The notes under the pieces were generated by a model. It saw only the letters and a list, made by a program, of their open reading frames with translations. It did not search any database and was not told the origin of the DNA. A stretch of DNA of 64,000 bases from Aggregatilinea lenta (lineage in GTDB: Bacteria; Chloroflexota; Anaerolineae; Aggregatilineales; Aggregatilineaceae). The stretch spans positions 2,542,001 through 2,606,000 of the forward strand of contig NZ_BFCB01000003.1 of NCBI RefSeq assembly GCF_003569045.1. Reading direction: 5' to 3'. Below, piece after piece: positions 29,649 to 38,025 of the stretch (the stretch's first letter is position 1; each line of letters starts with the position of its first letter). The translations under genes and the position numbers were made by a program.

Positions 29649-30719
29649 CTACTTGCGCAGCGAGCTTTCGGACGGCTGCGAGAAATACATGCGCCCGGCA
29701 TTGGTGACGATGTAGCGCGTGATGAGCACCGGAATCGTGCGGTCCATGTAGCGCTTACCATCCTCAACCACGACCATTGTGCCGTCGTCCAGATAGCCCA
29801 CGCCCTGGTCGGCTTCGCGGCCTTCCATCACTACGTGGATGTCGATGATTTCGCCAGGCAGGTAGATCGCCTTAAGCGCGTTTGCCAGCTCGTTGATGTT
29901 CAGCACGTGCACGCCCTGAAGCTCGGCCACGCGGTTGAGGTTGAAGTCCGTGGTCATGACGGGCACACCGCGCTGGCGGGCGAGCATCACCAGCTTTTCG
30001 TCCACTTCGTTGGTGCTTTCCACGTCGTCATCGATGATGCGTACCGGTGTCTGCCCGTGCTGCTGAAGTTCGCTGAGGATCTCCAGGCCGCGCTTGCCCC
30101 GGTTGCGCCGCAGCACGTCCGCCGAATCTGCCACGTGTTGCAGCTCGTGCAGCACGAAGCGCGGAATGACCATCGTGCCCAGCACGAACCCTGTGCGGCT
30201 GATATCCAAGATGCGCCCGTCGATAATCACGCTGGTGTCCAGCAGGATCTCTTCGGCGTTGGTCAGGCCGGGCATGGCGCGCAGCGTGCCGGGGTTGGCC
30301 CGGATCAGGCCGCCGAGCAGCACGAACAGTTCGCGCGCGCGCGCGTTAAATAAGGCAACGCTCAAATAGGCGACGATCACCACTACGGCGGTCGGCAGAA
30401 GCTGGCCGAACGGATCGGGCAGCAGAGACAGCGGCCACACGAACATGATCGACACGATCAGCCCAAATACGAGGCCGACCAGCAACGCCACCAGTTTTTC
30501 GGCAGGCATTTCGGTAATCGAGCGGCGCGCGATGCGGCTGGGTGTGGTAGTCAGCCAGGGCGTGATGATCAACCCGGCGAGGGCGCCGGTCAGCGAGAAG
30601 ATGAGGGCGGTTGCGTCGGCGGGCAGAAATAGCTCGTCGGCCAGATTCGTACCAAGCAGCGCGCCACACACAGCAAAGATAAGCATGCCCAGCAGGCGCA
30701 CCAGCAATTCGAGACTCAT
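29649..30719 (-). CDS. YacL-type membrane PIN/TRAM-domain protein
   Basis: 356 residues. Four hydrophobic spans in the first 125 residues (about 7-25, 37-55, 77-97 and 105-125) precede a PIN nuclease-like domain beginning EEILLDTSVIIDGRI with acidic residues Asp161 and Asp167, then VLHELQHVADSAD, and VMTTDFNLNRVAELQGV. A C-terminal TRAM RNA-binding domain covers about 285-350 (IYLPGEIIDIHVVMEGREADQGVGYLDDGTMVVVE). The same order is seen in Bacillus YacL. A membrane-tethered RNA-cleaving or RNA-binding role is expected; the substrate is not known. AGGAGG lies 9 nt before the ATG. The gene follows a 445-bp non-coding stretch. Confidence 0.92.
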   Translation of the reverse strand: MSLELLVRLLGMLIFAVCGALLGTNLADELFLPADATALIFSLTGALAGLIITPWLTTTPSRIARRSITEMPAEKLVALLVGLVFGLIVSIMFVWPLSLLPDPFGQLLPTAVVVIVAYLSVALFNARARELFVLLGGLIRANPGTLRAMPGLTNAEEILLDTSVIIDGRILDISRTGFVLGTMVIPRFVLHELQHVADSADVLRRNRGKRGLEILSELQQHGQTPVRIIDDDVESTNEVDEKLVMLARQRGVPVMTTDFNLNRVAELQGVHVLNINELANALKAIYLPGEIIDIHVVMEGREADQGVGYLDDGTMVVVEDGKRYMDRTIPVLITRYIVTNAGRMYFSQPSESSLRK

Positions 30720-30818
30720 AGATGATGCCTCCTCGCCATACTTGTGGACATCCGCTGCCGGGATAATGAGGCTGCGAGAAGTGCTGTCCTGCGCGTGACT
30801 CCGGTTCTGCCTTGGGAT

Positions 30819-30843
30819 AAAAAAAGAGGCCGCTGGAGCGGGC
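30819..30843 (-). terminator. Weak minus-strand intrinsic terminator upstream of the PIN/TRAM gene
   Basis: Stem CCGC-TCCA-GCGG with an extra flanking pair, followed on the minus strand by CTC and seven Ts. The stem is short, so efficiency is doubtful. Confidence 0.45.
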
Positions 30844-30970
30844 GCGTCAACTATGGCTTCTTACCTGGATAAAGATGGTCGATGTCAAAAGACTCGTGAT
30901 CGCTGAGTTCCGGTCCGGCAGGCGTGCAGCGCGATAAAGTGGATGAGTGTGTTGGCTGCCGGAAGTACCC

Positions 30971-30982
30971 ACACTTAAGTGT
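30971..30982. repeat. Perfect 12-bp palindrome ACACTTAAGTGT
   Basis: Intergenic dyad of the size expected for a dimeric regulator site; no promoter was found overlapping it with certainty. Confidence 0.4.
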
Positions 30983-31117
30983 TAGCGAAACTCAGAAATC
31001 CAAGTCTTTTGCACACTGACATCCCAACTGTAACATGGTTAAGAACGAGCGTCAATGACACTCGCCGGGCGATAGACCACCGGAACAGGGCGCGGCCTGG
31101 GTCGGATCCCGCGCAAC

Positions 31118-31139
31118 AAAAAAGCGCCCGAAGGCGCTT
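31118..31139 (-). terminator. Terminator of the tRNA-Leu gene
   Basis: Minus strand: stem AAGCGCC/GGCGCTT with a TTCG tetraloop followed by a T-run, 25 bp downstream of the tRNA 3' end. Confidence 0.88.
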
Positions 31140-31164
31140 GTCCCGATTGGCTGGTGCTACTAAG

Positions 31165-31247
31165 TAGGGGAGGTGAGATTCGAACTCACACGAGGTCACC
31201 CTCAACGGATTTTAAGTCCGCGGCGTCTGCCATTCCGCCACTCCCCC
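31165..31247 (-). tRNA. tRNA-Leu (anticodon UAA)
   Basis: 83-nt class II tRNA. Acceptor stem GGGGGAG pairs with CTCCCCT (a G-U at position 1-72) and discriminator A follows; no CCA is encoded. The anticodon stem GCGGA/TCCGT encloses the loop CTTAAAA with anticodon TAA. The long variable arm (TTGAGGGTGACCTCG region) and the T-loop GTTCGAATC are typical of leucine tRNAs. It has its own promoter and terminator. Confidence 0.96.
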
Positions 31248-31279
31248 AGGCCGTCTTCACCGGGGCAAAGACGGAAAGA

Positions 31280-31309
31280 AGTGTAGCATGAGATCCGCGC
31301 CTACGTCAA
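31280..31309 (-). promoter_or_regulatory. Predicted promoter of tRNA-Leu
   Basis: Minus strand TTGACG (31309-31304), 18-bp spacer, TACACT (31285-31280), about 33 bp before the tRNA 5' end. Confidence 0.75.
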
Positions 31310-31350
31310 TCATTCCGGGCGGAGTTTGCGCGGTTATCACCCTGCGCGTT

Positions 31351-32877
31351 CTAGTCGCGCTCGCGCAGATGCGGGAACAGCAGCACCTCGCGGATCGTGC
31401 TGCGGTCGGTCAGCAGCATAACCAACCGGTCCACGCCCAGGCCGCAGCCGCCTGCCGGGGGCATACCATAGCGCATCGCGCGCAGGTAGTCCTCATCGAT
31501 GGGTGTCGCCTCGTCGTCCTCTTCGCTGTACAGGCGGCCCATATCGATGAAGCGTGACTCCTGGTCGAGCGGGTCGTTCAGCTCGGTGAAGGCGTTGCCC
31601 ATCTCCATGCCGCCCACGAAGATCTCGAAGCGCTCGACGTGTGTCGGGTCATCCGGCACGGCCTTGGCCAGCGGCGAGATGTCGCGTGGGTAGTCAATGA
31701 TGAACGTCGGCTGGATCAGCGTTGGCTCGACGGTGTCGCCCAGCAGCCCATCGACCAGCTTGCCCCACGTGGCGGTAGTCCCAGCCTCCAGGCCCTTAGC
31801 ACGCATGGCGGCGCGCAGGGAGTCCGCGTCGGGATAGTCCACGTAGTCGATACCGGAGCACTCGCGGATGGCATCGCGCAGCGTGATACGCTTCCACGGC
31901 GGCGCGAGGTCGATCTCGTGGCTCTGGAAGCTGATCGTCGTGCTGCCCGTGACCTGCTCGGCGGCGTAGGCGACCATGCGCTCGGTCAGGTCCATCATGC
32001 CGTGGTAGTCGGTGTACGCCTGATAGAATTCAAGCTGCGTGAATTCCGGGTTGTGTTTGTAGCTTACGCCCTCGTTGCGGAAGTCGCGCCCGATCTCGTA
32101 TACGGCGTCGTACATGCCCACCAGCAGCCGCTTCAGGTACAGTTCGAAGCTGATGCGCAGGAACAGATCCTGATGGAGCTGGTTGTGATGCGTGGTGAAA
32201 GGCCGCGCTGCTGCTCCGCCGTAAATCGGCTGGAGGATCGGCGTCTCGACTTCCAGAAAACCTTCGCCATCGAGGAAGTTGCGCAGCGCACGCACAGCCA
32301 GCGCGCGGGCGCGGAACACGGCGCGCGTGTCGGGATTGACCGCGAGGTCAGCGTAACGCTGGCGGTAGCGTTCTTCCACGTCGCTGAACGTGCCATAGCG
32401 CTCGACCTGGCCGTCTTCGGTGACACGTTCCTTGATCACAGGCAGCGGGCTGAGCGCCTTCGAGAGCACGGCGAGGTCTGTTACCAGCACGCTGACCTCA
32501 CCCGCCCGCGTCCGCATCATGCTGCCCGTCGCCTGGACGAAGTCGCCCATGTCCAGCACGTCCTTGATCATGGCGTACATCTCTTCGCCCACATTGTCGA
32601 TGCGCACGAATAACTGCACGCGGCCTTCGCCATCCTCGATGTGCGCGAAGTACACCTTGCCCTTGAGATTCTGGCGCACGATACGCCCGCAGACAGTTAC
32701 TTCGACCGGTTCTGGCGTCTGGTGATCCTCAGTTTCGACCGCTTCGAACGCGCGGATGGCATCCTGGGAGCTGTGGGTGCACTTGACCCGGTTGGGGTAG
32801 GGCGCGATGCCGTGTTCAACGAGATAATGGAGTTTGTCGAGACGTTCTTGTTCCAGGTTGTTCGCGGGGGTCCACAT
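31351..32877 (-). CDS. lysS: Lysyl-tRNA synthetase (class II)
   Basis: 508 residues. An N-terminal OB-fold anticodon-binding domain (about 60-170, VTVCGRIVRQNLKGKVYFAHIEDGEGRVQLFV) is followed by the class II catalytic core: motif 1 around RYRQRYADL...FLEVETPILQ, motif 2 with FRNEGVSYKHNPEFTQLEFYQAY, and motif 3 GGCGLGVDRLVMLLTDRSTIREVLLFPHLR. GGMEMGNAFTELNDP is the lysine-specific segment. Charges tRNA-Lys in the cytosol. AGGAG lies 11 nt before the ATG. It lies 126 bp downstream of greA on the same strand, a pairing seen in many bacteria, so they are probably co-transcribed. Confidence 0.97.
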   Translation of the reverse strand: MWTPANNLEQERLDKLHYLVEHGIAPYPNRVKCTHSSQDAIRAFEAVETEDHQTPEPVEVTVCGRIVRQNLKGKVYFAHIEDGEGRVQLFVRIDNVGEEMYAMIKDVLDMGDFVQATGSMMRTRAGEVSVLVTDLAVLSKALSPLPVIKERVTEDGQVERYGTFSDVEERYRQRYADLAVNPDTRAVFRARALAVRALRNFLDGEGFLEVETPILQPIYGGAAARPFTTHHNQLHQDLFLRISFELYLKRLLVGMYDAVYEIGRDFRNEGVSYKHNPEFTQLEFYQAYTDYHGMMDLTERMVAYAAEQVTGSTTISFQSHEIDLAPPWKRITLRDAIRECSGIDYVDYPDADSLRAAMRAKGLEAGTTATWGKLVDGLLGDTVEPTLIQPTFIIDYPRDISPLAKAVPDDPTHVERFEIFVGGMEMGNAFTELNDPLDQESRFIDMGRLYSEEDDEATPIDEDYLRAMRYGMPPAGGCGLGVDRLVMLLTDRSTIREVLLFPHLRERD

Positions 32878-33003
32878 ACTGCTGTTCTTCTCCTAAAAAC
32901 GCGGACGTGCAGAGCGCCGTGGGGCGCGGCAGGTCAACAGAAGGCCCATGCCGACGGATCGCCAGCATGGGCCGGAAGGTCAAAATCCGCACGAGAACGG
33001 GCG

Positions 33004-33477
33004 CTACTCAATCGCCTTCACAACAAACTCGATGTCGCCGTCAGGCGCATTGACCACCACGCGGTCGCCCACGCGGTGACTCATCAGCGCGCGCCCCAGG
33101 GGACTCTTGTGCGAGATCTTGCCCGCACGCGGGTTGGCCTCGGCAGCGCCCACCAGATAGTAAATTTCGGTATCGTTGGTCCCTGTTTCCTGAACGGTAA
33201 CCTTGTCGCCCAGGCCGACCGTGTCTTTCGGCCCCTTTTCTTCGATAATGTGGGCGTTGCTCAGGATCATCTCCAGGCGCAGGATCTCCCCCTCGACGAA
33301 GGCCTGCTCGTTTTTCGCGTCTTCGTACTCGGCGTTCTCGACCAGCTCGCCGCCCTCTTCGAGAGCCAGGCGCAGGCGCTCGGCCACCTCCTGACGCCGC
33401 ACGTTGCGGAGGAACGCGAGCCGTTCTTCGTGCTCCCGCTGACCTTCTTGCGTCAGGTAATGGACTTCTTCACTCAT
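33004..33477 (-). CDS. greA: Transcription elongation factor GreA
   Basis: 157 residues, normal length. An N-terminal antiparallel coiled coil (about 1-80) enters the RNA polymerase secondary channel to trigger cleavage of backtracked RNA; the C-terminal FKBP-like domain has GDKVTVQETGTNDTEIYYLVG and the conserved SPLGRALMSHRVGDRVVV. The tip reads EEGGELVENAEYEDAKNEQ: the usual tip Asp of GDLSENAEY is Glu here while the second acidic residue (Glu of ENAEY) is kept, a conservative change. First gene before lysS. The upstream 340 nt hold a promoter and a terminator, so expression may be attenuated. Confidence 0.96.
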   Translation of the reverse strand: MSEEVHYLTQEGQREHEERLAFLRNVRRQEVAERLRLALEEGGELVENAEYEDAKNEQAFVEGEILRLEMILSNAHIIEEKGPKDTVGLGDKVTVQETGTNDTEIYYLVGAAEANPRAGKISHKSPLGRALMSHRVGDRVVVNAPDGDIEFVVKAIE

Positions 33478-33719
33478 GCTATTCCTCCGTCACTAAAGCG
33501 GATATGGCAAGATCAGTGTGCTTGCCTTATGTTTCGTGATGACGCCATAAACTCTTTAGAGCTGCGGTTTGGCTGCGTTCAAGAGTGCGAACGTCATAGT
33601 CCGCAGCGCCGCCGTGAGGTGACGCTGCACGAACTGGCTTTGAGACGACTGCGTAACATGCCATAGAACAGGGCTGCCGGAGCAGGGCCGGACCCCTGTC
33701 TTCAGAGCGCTAAATGCAC

Positions 33720-33741
33720 AAAAACACAGCCTGCGCTGTGT
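33720..33741 (-). terminator. Intrinsic terminator inside the greA leader region
   Basis: Minus strand: perfect 7-bp stem ACACAGC/GCTGTGT with tetraloop GCAG, followed by TTTTG. It lies about 80-100 nt downstream of the predicted start and about 240 nt before greA. Confidence 0.7.
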
Positions 33742-33818
33742 CTTCAGAGTCACATGCAATTGCTTTGATCAAAAACAATAGACCGCCCGCGTGGCGATCC
33801 ATGATTTATTGCTCTCAG
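33720..33818 (-). ncRNA. Candidate short leader RNA or small RNA upstream of greA
   Basis: A transcript from the promoter at 33825-33853 would start near 33818 and end at the terminator at 33720-33741, about 99 nt. Its 5' half folds as a hairpin: outer CAATA/TATTG (33776-33780 with 33807-33811) and inner GACCGCC/GGCGATC with one G-U (33781-33787 with 33793-33799). No known RNA family is recognised. It may be a free small RNA or the terminated form of the greA-lysS leader. Confidence 0.45.
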
Positions 33819-33824
33819 TTGACG

Positions 33825-33853
33825 ATATTAGCATAGTTTACACGCCTTGTAAA
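33825..33853 (-). promoter_or_regulatory. Predicted promoter reading toward greA
   Basis: Minus strand TTTACA (33853-33848), 17-bp spacer, TAATAT (33830-33825). The -35 is one arm of the inverted repeat TTTACA-CGCCT-TGTAAA. Confidence 0.65.
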
Positions 33854-33877
33854 GCGAGCTGCAAAAAGGCTGTTAGT

Positions 33878-33883
33878 TATAAT
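33878..33883 (+). promoter_or_regulatory. Probable -10 of the ffh promoter
   Basis: Consensus TATAAT, 117 bp before the ffh ATG; no good -35 at 16-18 bp. Confidence 0.5.
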
Positions 33884-33999
33884 GTCAACAGCGGCTGTAC
33901 GGGAGGGAATGTCCATGAGCGGACTTCGGCTTGACGCGAGCGCACCGATCTTTTACAATTTCCGGCTGGCAAACTAGGGAGAACCTGAGACCAAATCGC

Positions 34000-35328
34000 A
34001 TGTTCGAGAGCTTAAGTGATCGCCTACAAGATGTCTTCGATCAACTTGGTCGCAAGGGTAAGCTGACCGAAGAGGACGTGACTACCGCTCTGCGCGAAGT
34101 ACGTATGGCGCTGCTCGAAGCGGACGTCAATATCAAGGTCACCAAGGACTTCATCAAGCGCGTGCAGGAACGGGCCATCGGCGCGGAAGTGCAAAAAGCG
34201 CTCAAGCCGTCGCAGCAGGTCATCAAGATCGTGCACGAAGAGCTGATGGAGACGCTGGGTGAGCCGGGTCGCCTGAACCTGAGTGGGCCGTCGCCGCGTG
34301 TGATCATGCTCGTTGGTCTGCAAGGGTCCGGTAAGACGACCACGGCGGCCAAGCTGGCGCTGATGCTGCGCCGCGACGGGCGTCGTCCGTGGCTGGTGGC
34401 GGGAGACACGTACCGCCCCGCAGCGGTCGACCAGTTGGTGACGCTGGCCAAGCAGCTTGACATTCCGTATCACGAAGAAGGTACCAGCGCCGCGCCACCC
34501 GATATCTGCGAGCGTGGACTCAAGAAAGCCAAAGAGGCGGGCGCGACGGTCGTCATCCTTGACACAGCGGGCCGTTTGCAGATCGACGACGGCATGATGC
34601 GCGAGCTGGCTGAGATCCGCAAGCGCACCGAACCGGCGGAAGTACTGCTGGTCGCGGACGCGATGACTGGCCAGGAAGCGGTACGCATCGCCGAAGGCTT
34701 CAACGACCAGGTGGGCCTGACCGGACTGATCCTGACCAAGGTAGACGGCGATGCGCGCGGCGGTGCCGCGATCTCCATGCGCGCAGTGACCGGTGTGCCG
34801 ATCAAGTACATGGGTACGGGCGAAAAGATCGACGCCTTTGAGCCGTTCCATCCCGACCGGCTGGCTTCGCGTATCCTGGGCATGGGTGACATGCTGTCGC
34901 TTATCGAGCGCGCCGAGCAGACTTTCGACCAGCGCGAAGCGGAGAAGCTGCAAAAGAAGCTGCTTTCCAACGACTTCACGCTAGAAGACTTCCTCAAGCA
35001 GCTTCAGCAGGTCAAGAAAATGGGCCCCATCGGCCAGATTCTTGATATGCTGCCCGGAGGCGGACGCTTAAAGCAGCAGATTAGCTTCGACAATGAAGAC
35101 GCCCAGAAGCAGCTTAGGACGGTCGAGGCGATCATTTACTCGATGACGCCCGGCGAGCGCCGCAACCCGCGCGTGCTCAACGCGACCCGCAAGCGCCGCG
35201 TGGCGGCGGGCAGTGGCACGTCCGTGCAGGAAATCAACCAACTGCTCAAGCAGTTCCGAGAGATGCAGCGGCTGATGAAAACGTTCGGGAAGGGCAAGAT
35301 GCCAAAAATTCCCGGTATGTTTCGGTAG
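34000..35328 (+). CDS. ffh: Signal recognition particle GTPase Ffh (SRP54)
   Basis: 442 residues from the ATG at 34000, giving MFESLSDRLQDVFDQLGRKGKLTEEDV, the standard N domain. The G domain has P-loop GLQGSGKTT (106-114), the DTYRPAAVDQL insertion-box region, DTAGRLQ, TKVDGDARGGA, and closing GTGEKIDAFEPFHPDRLASRILGMGD. The Met-rich M domain (about 325-442) binds signal peptides and 4.5S RNA and ends in FGKGKMPKIPGMFR. With FtsY it delivers membrane proteins to the translocon. Heads the ffh-rpsP-khpA-rimM group; the SRP RNA gene is not recognised nearby. Confidence 0.97.
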   Translation: MFESLSDRLQDVFDQLGRKGKLTEEDVTTALREVRMALLEADVNIKVTKDFIKRVQERAIGAEVQKALKPSQQVIKIVHEELMETLGEPGRLNLSGPSPRVIMLVGLQGSGKTTTAAKLALMLRRDGRRPWLVAGDTYRPAAVDQLVTLAKQLDIPYHEEGTSAAPPDICERGLKKAKEAGATVVILDTAGRLQIDDGMMRELAEIRKRTEPAEVLLVADAMTGQEAVRIAEGFNDQVGLTGLILTKVDGDARGGAAISMRAVTGVPIKYMGTGEKIDAFEPFHPDRLASRILGMGDMLSLIERAEQTFDQREAEKLQKKLLSNDFTLEDFLKQLQQVKKMGPIGQILDMLPGGGRLKQQISFDNEDAQKQLRTVEAIIYSMTPGERRNPRVLNATRKRRVAAGSGTSVQEINQLLKQFREMQRLMKTFGKGKMPKIPGMFR

Positions 35329-35455
35329 CATTACAGTGTATAATGCCACTGTCGCCGTCTGCCCAGGCAGTCCTTCCCTGCCGCATCCTCTCGCAGCGTG
35401 GTGGCAGTTTGATAGTCAACACTCGCTAGCACAGTAAAAGGATAGGTGGACAGGA

Positions 35456-35923
35456 ATGGTTCGTATTCGTTTGCGCCGGGTCGGGCGTAAGAAGCAGCCC
35501 AGCTACCGCATCGTGGTCGCCGATTCGCGCAGCCCGCGTGATGGCCGTTATATCGAGGTGATCGGGTTCTACAATCCGCGCACCGAGCCTGCGACCATGA
35601 CCATCAAGGAAGACCGCGCTTTGTACTGGCTTCAGAATGGCGCACAGCCGAGCGACGCCGTGCGGCGCATTCTGGACAAGCTGGGTACACTGGCACGCCT
35701 TGAGCGGGCGCATAAGGGCGAAGCCGTCGATTCGCTGGTGTCCGAGGCGGAAGCCGAAGCCGAAGCGCGCGGCCCCGTCAGCCCCAAGACCATGGTAGCC
35801 GCCGAGCCGAAGGCTGAAGCGGCTGAGAGCAGCACTGAAGCGCCGGAAGCCGTCGAAGAAGTGGCAGCCGTCGAAGAAGCAGAAGAAGCTGAAGAAGAGG
35901 CGCCTGCGGCTGAGGCCGAATAG
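35456..35923 (+). CDS. rpsP: Small ribosomal subunit protein bS16 with long acidic tail
   Basis: 155 residues. The first 85 or so are standard S16: [42 protein letters not shown] then [27 protein letters not shown]. Typical S16 is 80-90 residues; the extra 70 are an Ala/Glu-rich tail ([10 protein letters not shown], then alternating EE, A and V), probably disordered and exposed on the 30S surface. A possible internal promoter -10 (TATAAT, 35348-35353 region just after ffh) and an AAAGGATAG-type ribosome-binding site precede it. Assembles the 5' domain of 16S rRNA. Confidence 0.97.
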
Positions 35924-36068
35924 GTCGTGGCGGTTCGAGTAACCTCCAAGCACACAAAAATGACAATGCGGACGGCAGCGCGTGTGGCGGCTGTCCGCAT
36001 TGGCCTATTTTTCTGACCAGATCTCCGGTCAGCCCTTTCAGAGCTGCCGCAGCGATGGAGAAGACAGA

Positions 36069-36296
36069 ATGAAAGACCTTGTTGAATATGTTGCCAAGTC
36101 GCTGGTGGACGATCCGTCGCAGGTGCACGTGACCACGGTCGATAGCGGCTCTTCCACCGTGCTGGAGCTGCAAGTTGCGCCCGAAGATATGGGGCGCGTG
36201 ATCGGCAAGAGTGGCCGCGTGGCGAACGCGATGCGTGTCCTGGTGCGCGTGATGGCGACCAAGCAGGGCAAGCGCGTCACGCTTGACATTGTCTAG
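36069..36296 (+). CDS. khpA: KhpA, KH-domain RNA-binding protein
   Basis: 75 residues from the ATG at 36069. Single KH domain with the GxxG loop GKSG (46-49) in MGRVIGKSGRVANAMRVLVRV and a C-terminal beta strand KRVTLDIV. In firmicutes KhpA dimerises with KhpB (Jag) and binds many RNAs, affecting cell-wall synthesis and division. The location between rpsP and rimM is the conserved one. The stop is 13 bp before the rimM start. Confidence 0.95.
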   Translation: MKDLVEYVAKSLVDDPSQVHVTTVDSGSSTVLELQVAPEDMGRVIGKSGRVANAMRVLVRVMATKQGKRVTLDIV

Positions 36297-36309
36297 TTAC
36301 GGCCCGGCT

Positions 36310-36858
36310 ATGGCTTCGCACCAACCAACTCGTGACGATCCTCCCTTCCTGCTGTTAGGGCGCGTGCTGCGTCCGCACGGCATTCGTGGCGAACTCCGGC
36401 TTGAGGTGCTCACCGCCTATCCGGAACGTATCCTGCCTGACGATCACGTGTTTGTCGGCCCGGATCCCGCCGATCCGGCGTCGGCAGTCGAATACGCGAT
36501 CGAAGGCGTGCGCCGTCACAAGCAGTACCTCATTCTTCAACTGGCAGGCATCACCAACCGCGACGACGCGGATTTCCTGCGGAACCAGTACATCATGGTG
36601 ACGCTGGGCGAGGCCGTGCCGCTCGAAGAAGACGAATTTTACCTCTACCAGATCATCGGTATGCCCGTGTACACCGACGACGACGAGCACCTGGGCGAGA
36701 TCGTGGACGTGATCGAGACGGGCGCGAACGACGTCTATGTGGTGCGCGGCCCGCGTGGCGAGATCCTGCTGCCCGCCATCGAGGAATGCATCCTCGACGT
36801 GGACATCGAGGGGCAGCGCGTCACGGCCCGATTGATGGAAGGGCTGCTCGGCGACTAA
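36310..36858 (+). CDS. rimM: Ribosome maturation factor RimM
   Basis: 182 residues from the ATG at 36310. The N-terminal RimM beta-barrel begins LLLGRVLRPHGIRGELRLEVLTAYPERIL, and the PRC-barrel domain holds LYQIIGMPVYTDDDEHLGEIVDVIETGANDVYVVRGPRGEILLPAIEECI. It binds S19 and the 16S 3' domain during 30S assembly. In many bacteria trmD and rplS follow; here dprA follows instead. Confidence 0.96.
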   Translation: MASHQPTRDDPPFLLLGRVLRPHGIRGELRLEVLTAYPERILPDDHVFVGPDPADPASAVEYAIEGVRRHKQYLILQLAGITNRDDADFLRNQYIMVTLGEAVPLEEDEFYLYQIIGMPVYTDDDEHLGEIVDVIETGANDVYVVRGPRGEILLPAIEECILDVDIEGQRVTARLMEGLLGD

Positions 36859-36912
36859 CGGCACGTCGGGTCACCAGTCTCAACCCGGATAGAGGAGTGG
36901 GGCGCTGCCACA

Positions 36913-38025
36913 ATGAGCGCGCGGAAGTACTGGCTCGGCTTCAATGTAGTCAAGGGAATTGGGCCGGTGCGGCTGCGCGCGCTGCACGCCCACTTTGGCG
37001 ATCTCGAAACGGCCTGGAATGCCTCCGAGCATGACCTGCGAGCCGCCGGACTGGATCGCCGCTCCGCATCGAATCTTTTGCAAGCCCGCAAATCCATTCA
37101 CCTGGACCAACTGAGCGACGACGTCGACCGGCTGGGCGCAGCCGCCCTCACGCTGGATGACGTCGACTACCCGGCGCTGCTGCGTGAACTTCCCGATGCG
37201 CCGCCCGTACTGTATATTAAGGGCACACTGCTCGACGCGGATCGCTGGGCGGTGGCGTTCGTCGGCACGCGCCGCGCGACGACGTATGGCCGCGAAGTGA
37301 CGCAGACCCTGGTCGAGCCGCTGGTGCACGCTGGGATTACCATCGTCAGCGGGATGGCGCTGGGCATTGACGCGGCGGCGCACAAGGCCGCACTGGACGC
37401 AGGTGGGCGCACCATCGCCGTGCTCGGCTGCGGGATCGATACAGTCTATCCGCCGGAGCATCGCCATCTGGCCGCCGCCATTGTGGAAAGCGGCGCGCTG
37501 GTGACGGAATTCCCGCCCGGAACGCCACCGGAAGGCAAGAACTTCCCCGTGCGCAATCGCACGATCGGCGGATTGTCGCTGGGTGTGGTAGTCGTTGAAG
37601 CGCCGGAATCCAGCGGCGCATTGCTGACAGCGGACATCGCGGCGGAGCAGGGGCGGGATGTGTTCGCCGTGCCGGGCAACCTGACGGCGCGGGCCAGCAA
37701 GGGCACCAACCGCCTGATTCAGAACGGGGCTAAGCTCGTCGTGTCGGCTGAAGACATTCTGGACGAGCTGAACCTGACGCGCTCGACGGTGAAGGTACGC
37801 ACCAGCGTGCAGGAGATCGCCCCGGCGGATGCGACAGAACAGGCCCTGCTGGAGGTGCTGGACAGCGAGCCGGTGCATATCGACGACCTGTGCCAACGGA
37901 CTGGTCTACCCATTACCCGTGTGAGCAGCGCGCTCGCACTGATGGAGCTTAAGGGTATGGTAAGCCGCCAGGAGGGCATGCAGTACGTGCGCTCACGGGG
38001 CGGCGCCCACTACCGCTTGGACTAG
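36913..38025 (+). CDS. dprA: DNA-processing protein DprA
   Basis: 370 residues. An N-terminal helix-hairpin-helix/SAM-like region (IGPVRLRALHAHFGDLETAW, about 10-75) precedes the extended Rossmann core: FVGTRRATTYGREVTQ, SGMALGIDAAAHKAALDAGG, LGCGIDTVYPPEHRHL, and FPVRNRTIGGLSLGVVVVEAPESSGALLTADIAAEQGRDVFAVPGN. A C-terminal winged helix (about 305-365, IDDLCQRTGLPITRVSSALALMELKGMV) completes the usual three-part structure. DprA loads RecA on incoming single-stranded DNA in natural transformation; the gene is present in many non-competent species. No other competence gene is in the window. Confidence 0.95.
   Translation: MSARKYWLGFNVVKGIGPVRLRALHAHFGDLETAWNASEHDLRAAGLDRRSASNLLQARKSIHLDQLSDDVDRLGAAALTLDDVDYPALLRELPDAPPVLYIKGTLLDADRWAVAFVGTRRATTYGREVTQTLVEPLVHAGITIVSGMALGIDAAAHKAALDAGGRTIAVLGCGIDTVYPPEHRHLAAAIVESGALVTEFPPGTPPEGKNFPVRNRTIGGLSLGVVVVEAPESSGALLTADIAAEQGRDVFAVPGNLTARASKGTNRLIQNGAKLVVSAEDILDELNLTRSTVKVRTSVQEIAPADATEQALLEVLDSEPVHIDDLCQRTGLPITRVSSALALMELKGMVSRQEGMQYVRSRGGAHYRLD

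Follow-up and report, generated by a model that had tools for sequence, protein, structure and literature searches.

What is the function of the promoter and two tandem hairpins that lie ahead of greA, the gene for transcription elongation factor GreA, in the Chloroflexota bacterium Aggregatilinea lenta? GreA rescues stalled RNA polymerase. We analysed 64 kilobases (kb) of this 6.2-megabase, five-contig genome (contig NZ_BFCB01000003.1, positions 2,542,001 to 2,606,000; hereafter the window, with positions counted from its first letter), together with related genomes. The greA 5′ leader is, in our judgement, likely to be a cis-acting transcription attenuator composed of two tandem intrinsic-terminator-like hairpins, termed here H1 and H2. 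This reading is carried by the anatomy of the leader, its conservation, its near-exclusive association with greA and the RNA-type pairing of H2, and the hairpins, kept at greA in many relatives, probably throttle its expression.

On the minus strand the leader reads, in order, promoter TTTACA-N17-TAATAT, H1 with a U-rich tail, H2 with five U residues and, 242 nucleotides (nt) further on, greA (Table 1). A preliminary description of the locus, made from the window sequence, had proposed the same promoter at the same place, a perfect 7-base-pair (bp) terminator with a U tract at 33720-33741 and a distance of about 240 nt to greA; all three were recovered, the terminator being H2 (ACACAGC/GCTGTGT, U tract to 33720) and greA starting at 33477. 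The hairpin that it placed at 33776-33811 is present as H1 with a shorter stem, 33802-33778, the outer part being a looser CAATA/TATTG extension. Its terminator H2 is indeed conserved at greA, but is not the sole candidate, as the tail of H1 is terminator-like too.

Taken from the window alone, the leader does not clearly exceed chance, and its significance is supplied by the relatives. The pattern TTTACA-N16-18-TANNNT matches once in the 64 kb and is present in 3 of 100 shuffles. Folding gives z = -2.69 for the 104-nt leader, a stability reached by 3 of 200 shuffles, and z = -3.44 for the 345 nt up to the greA start. A terminator scan of 30000-38000 returned 6 sites against 5.8 expected, with H1 among them and H2 not listed. 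At gathering scores a tRNA was the only Rfam match in the window; three matches below gathering scores, found up to an expectation value (E) of 5 (best isrD, 18.1 of 37 bits), were taken as chance.

Table 1. Features of the greA locus in the window
Feature	Positions	Strand	Remarks
Promoter	33825-33853	-	-35 TTTACA at 33853-33848, 17-nt spacer, extended -10 TATGCTAATAT
-10 element TAATAT	ends at 33825	-	predicted start near 33818
Hairpin H1	stem 33778-33802	-	core GATCGCC-ACGCG-GGCGGTC at 33799-33781
U-rich tail of H1, TGTTTTTGAT	33768-33777	-	read from sequence
Hairpin H2	33724-33741	-	7-bp stem, ACACAGC-GCAG-GCTGTGT
U tract of H2	33720-33724	-	H2 hairpin plus tract: single match in own genome
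GGAGG, likely greA ribosome-binding site	33484-33488	-	identified by eye
greA, transcription elongation factor GreA	33004-33477	-	NCBIfam NF001263, 158 bits (cut-off 145); TIGR01462, 141 bits (cut-off 139)
lysS, lysine--tRNA ligase	31351-32877	-	next downstream of greA; NCBIfam match above cut-off
ffh	34000-35328	+	divergent neighbour; NCBIfam match above cut-off
Hairpin H3, GGCCCATGCTGGC...GGCATGGGCC	32943-32973	-	between greA and lysS; GCCCATGC...GTGGGC type, tail TTCTGTT
G+C-rich inverted repeat, GACAGGG...CCCTGTTC	33666-33700	-	downstream of H2

We compared the leader across 154 genomes of the window's order, of which 107 carry a greA orthologue at E 1e-40 and 47 do not; with paralogues counted as well as orthologues, 41 of 41 genomes, among them that of the window, have a GreA match. 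A covariance model of the leader, searched up to E 10, matches a single place in the own genome. In a class sample it matches in 3 of 298 genomes, and across the order's 154 genomes it has 24 matches in 22, including two weak ones (E 0.005 and 0.008). By coordinates, 22 of these 24 lie directly upstream of greA and the other two are contig-end copies of greA leaders from the same genomes, the apparent extra copies L054 and L055 being such duplicates. Within the window's family a greA orthologue occurs in 16 of 18 genomes and the leader in 15 of these 16, with the order promoter, H1, H2, greA kept; the contig of the sixteenth begins 131 nt before greA. One leader (L004, genome G003) has H1 and no H2 by pattern.

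The two hairpins differ in how closely they follow greA. The H2 motif, CACAGC-N3-8-GCTGTGT(C/T)TTT, has a single match in the own genome; across the order it has 57, spread over 56 of the 154 genomes, and a reversed-pattern control has none. In 53 of the 57 cases it stands upstream of greA on the same strand, at 21-344 nt (median 57); for the remaining four, protein search found no greA nearby and the fetched stretches held no greA reading frame. A class sample of 396 genomes gave 23 matches (reversed control 4), 13 of them in the order's 37 members and 10 in the other 359. The H1 core, GATCGCC-N3-8-GGCGGTC, matches 10 times in the own genome (reversed control 1), and when its tail is included there are 30 matches in 28 of the 154 genomes of the order (reversed control 1); with coordinates compared by eye, 18 of these lie upstream of greA and 11 at other places, the last one being a contig-end duplicate. 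H1 alone is thus less greA-specific than H2. Neither motif was found in the fetched upstream stretches of GreA paralogues (that of the own genome and three in relatives).

Within the leader, conservation is concentrated in the hairpins. Among 18 aligned leaders the mean pairwise identity is 0.77 for H1, 0.81 for its tail and 0.87 for H2, and outside the hairpins it is 0.39 in the part before H1 and 0.31 in the spacer between them. Stem variation in this first alignment was too low for covariation testing; when the 18 leaders were folded individually, the mid pair of H2 had a probability of at least 0.94 in 17 (0.01 in L019) and that of H1 at least 0.5 in 15. A larger set was collected with a regular expression for H2, which returned 56 distinct stretches; removal of 9 that were not H2 and addition of 2 true ones left 49 rows, 48 of which were aligned (L060 was left out, with no effect on the per-pair picture). 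In these 48 leaders 94.2% of H2 cells are paired, compared to 92.1% in shuffles (none of 500 as high), and three pairs have changed on both sides (none of 500 shuffles; 0-2 in slid controls), with the caveat, given by the pairing-test tool itself, that kinship among sequences can beat such shuffles without structure. Five core pairs are invariant, partly through selection because the search pattern had fixed four core letters (C, C, A and G); of the positions left free by the pattern, the second stem position is invariant and the innermost pair has changed with compensation in L094 and L110.

The manner in which H2 varies also speaks to the level at which it acts. Its stem-base pair is G-U in 30 of the 48 leaders, A-U in 16 and G-C in two, and is never broken, its loops measure from 3 to 13 nt, and a T-rich tail follows on the same strand in all 49 rows listed. 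Because loop length varies and G-U pairs are tolerated, H2 appears to act at the RNA level rather than as a DNA operator. Operator sites bound by a dimeric regulator, at which transcription would be blocked shortly after the promoter, would account for stem letters conserved beyond the needs of a hairpin, such as the five invariant core pairs, mostly pattern-fixed as they are, but they fit poorly with so variable a half-site spacing, with a base pair that obeys an RNA rather than a DNA rule, and with T-rich tails on the same strand throughout the rows listed, making this a distinctly improbable explanation of the dyads. For H1, 34 stretches were reduced to 31 leaders (L078 dropped as false, L060 and L066 left out as near kept rows); 94.8% of cells are paired (1 of 500 shuffles as high), and a U-G wobble in the stem is retained in 23 of the 31. 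In a further locus, L026, H1 was missed by the regular expression and seen by eye.

Along the leader, H1, counted from ATCG, starts 26-31 nt past the -10 element in 15 of 15 family loci measured, and H2 follows the -10 element at 74-109 nt in the window's family and at 31-70 nt in the H2-only relatives listed. With T[TG][TG]AC[AGT] as the -35 search pattern, the -35 element is TTTACA or TTTACT rather than TTGACA in 44 of the 48 named greA leaders in which a promoter was matched. The window's own -35 element is covered by a dyad of TTTACA and TGTAAA.

At the other end of the leader, 15 of 53 relatives have no more than 45 nt, and as few as 21 nt, between H2 and the first aligned residue of GreA; this leaves no room for another promoter, and greA transcription must therefore pass H2 there. 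The same spacing bears on whether the leader might instead be an independent small-RNA gene beside greA, with greA transcribed from its own promoter further down. The 242-nt gap in the window and the compactness of a unit of about 99 nt would suit such a gene, and a promoter-like site (8 of 12 matches) occurs in the gap of 2 of the 12 family loci in which this exceeds 60 nt. However, the short gaps could not hold both a promoter and a ribosome-binding site, no site with 8 of 12 promoter matches exists in the window's own gap, and loops and spacer are not conserved, contrary to expectation for a base-pairing seed; the aligned leaders show no conserved unpaired stretch suited to base pairing, the U-rich tails aside. 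We therefore regard a separate small-RNA gene as unlikely, although the leader transcript itself may have some small-RNA role. Ribosome-mediated attenuation merits far less credence still: in the window an ATG at H1, with a purine run upstream, opens a 30-codon frame (ATG GAT CGC ... TAG) into the terminator, but an ATG is found there in only 2 of 18 leaders (L002, which is the window, and L019, whose frame has 13 codons; ATG was the only start codon considered), and the varying length of the H1 loop among relatives shifts the frame.

Any intrinsic terminator consists of a hairpin followed by a U tract, and H1 and H2 could in principle end the transcript of a neighbouring gene as standard 3′ terminators, without a role at greA. 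A generic terminator energy scan proved too permissive to address this (89 of 93 regions on the sense strand, 33 of 93 antisense, 282 of 558 shuffles) and was replaced by a strict hairpin and U-tract scan of 85 of 86 greA upstream regions (L063 was too short), which found sites in 59 of the 85, in 7 of 85 on the opposite strand and in 58 of 1,700 shuffles. Terminators are common 3′ of greA as well, with letters that drift more than those of the 5′ hairpins: across all 22 loci with a hairpin on both sides of the gene, mean stem identity is 0.48 on the 5′ side versus 0.34 on the 3′ side, with equal medians, and for 16 of these loci (among L074-L112), a subset picked afterwards and mostly carrying H2, it is 0.69 (median 1.0) versus 0.37. 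Furthermore, a promoter precedes the hairpins, and no same-strand upstream gene ends at them because ffh is divergent. An origin as plain 3′ terminators is accordingly very hard to credit.

Under the attenuator reading, transcription would start near 33818 and polymerase would meet H1 first, with some 19-24 nt of RNA ahead of the GATCGCC core in the family (19 in the window) if the start lies 7 nt past the -10 element, and H2 second. A share of polymerases would stop at each hairpin, releasing RNAs with sequence-predicted lengths of about 48 nt (H1) and about 99 nt (H2), and those passing both would continue into greA messenger RNA (mRNA), such that the passing fraction would set the GreA level. 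By analogy with the Escherichia coli GraL system, the signal may be GreA itself, exerted via paused or backtracked polymerase, and autoregulation by GreA at this leader is plausible on that basis. A more specific version, which we put forward tentatively and hold to be possible rather than probable, is that H1 and H2, rather than being plain terminators, are sequence-specific RNA signals. Polymerase together with GreA, or else a dedicated RNA-binding protein, would read each hairpin on its exit from polymerase. Such reading would account for an H2 core that stays almost fixed amid drifting loops and spacer, and for the retention of the U-G wobble of H1; if true, greA leaders across much of the order would contain a hard-wired sensor of polymerase backtracking.

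Several results weigh against attenuation by two terminators or limit its reach. The preliminary description had made conservation of the hairpins in relatives that keep greA a test of its reading, and the outcome is largely favourable: among the order's 107 genomes with greA, the union of covariance model, H1 motif and H2 motif places H1 or H2 before the gene in 62. The remaining 45, however, match neither the model nor either motif. Likewise, 27 of 85 greA upstream regions lack both motifs by regular expression, with other hairpins seen by eye in some. The H1 stem has varied little, with changes on both sides in one pair only, within the shuffle range, and because its U tail is interrupted, H1 might be a pause or protein site instead of a terminator. 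No antiterminator common to the 18 leaders was found, though published greA leaders are reported to have one (PMC2965389); upstream pairing of the H2 5′ arm has mean probabilities of 0.03-0.78 across the 18 leaders. Finally, 15 of 16 loci in the window's family retain H3, as against none of 3 in another family of the same order, and within the window's family conserved hairpins are therefore not unique to the leader. H3 may be a greA terminator or a lysS leader, and the presence of a conserved U-tailed hairpin between the two genes weakens the further proposal that read-through would express greA and lysS together.

The closest known arrangement is E. coli GraL, for which PMC6829880 describes a terminator 19 nt after the start, RNAs of 37-59 nt and read-through by about one third of transcripts. 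In both leaders the promoter is followed by a short segment, which measures 19 nt in E. coli and, counted from the predicted start, about 19-24 nt in the present case, then by a terminator-type hairpin with a U tract and then by greA, and the RNA of about 48 nt that H1 would give falls within the E. coli size range. They differ in that the leader described here has two tandem hairpins, with stem letters conserved across much of an order. GraL is further marked by a short-RNA array arising from imprecise termination, GreA-dependent cis repression of greA and trans action on other mRNAs. Autoregulation of E. coli greA needs catalytically active GreA and the leader sequence in cis, and it was seen in vivo but not reproduced in vitro (PMC6829880). 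The likeness to an E. coli-type greA leader, also part of the preliminary description, thus extends to the build of the leader and not to membership of the Rfam greA leader family: RF01769, a family of greA leaders with 124 positions, fails to match the own genome at any E value up to 10, whereas it matches in 8 of 14 control genomes, in one of them over the cut-off.

Attenuators before greA/rnk genes are already known. In Naville and Gautheret (2010, PMC2965389), greA/rnk leaders are predicted attenuators that rank seventh among gene families, and the leader described here shares with that class a terminator-like hairpin in greA orientation, between promoter and gene and within 300 nt of it (H2 at 242 nt), although, as mentioned above, no common antiterminator was found among the leaders compared. 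The same paper describes a rimP leader in which a terminator hairpin with unusually conserved stem letters precedes the operon for the polymerase-binding factor NusA, as a parallel with another gene and another motif, GGGc...gCCC (PMC2965389). The string 'Chloroflex' is absent from the main text of PMC2965389, greA as a whole word is absent from the passages searched in PMC11109978, PMC6296669 and PMC4128351, and no paper on a greA leader in Chloroflexota was found among the matches listed for open-licence literature. Within the literature searched, the phylum, the tandem form and the stem-letter constraint across much of an order are new. The preliminary description's view of the element as a greA leader attenuator is borne out to the extent that a leader of promoter, hairpin and U tract is kept with greA in many relatives. 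Early termination ahead of greA is established for E. coli, with predictions for other Proteobacteria, bacilli and Clostridia. The occurrence of this arrangement in a further phylum, with hairpins unmatched by the Rfam model, suggests that such control of greA arose or persisted repeatedly, which would fit feedback by GreA on the polymerase that transcribes its leader. With strongly conserved stems and loops that vary freely, these leaders could also serve as a natural mutant series for how GreA regulates its leader.

Hairpins at this position extend beyond the window's near relatives. H1-type hairpins before greA also occur at loci farther removed, among them L116, L124 and L125, the latter two belonging to two similar greA genes in one metagenome-assembled genome with an H1-type leader on each. 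In L101, L117, L120, L122 and L135, from other Anaerolineae or Chloroflexi, the same place is taken by another type of hairpin, ACTGAGAG...CTCTCAGT or one resembling it, followed by a T-rich tail, and upstream of greA in L126, from a member of the Bacillota, a short CCC-GCAA-GGG hairpin with T6 lies just past the promoter and fits published Firmicutes greA leaders.
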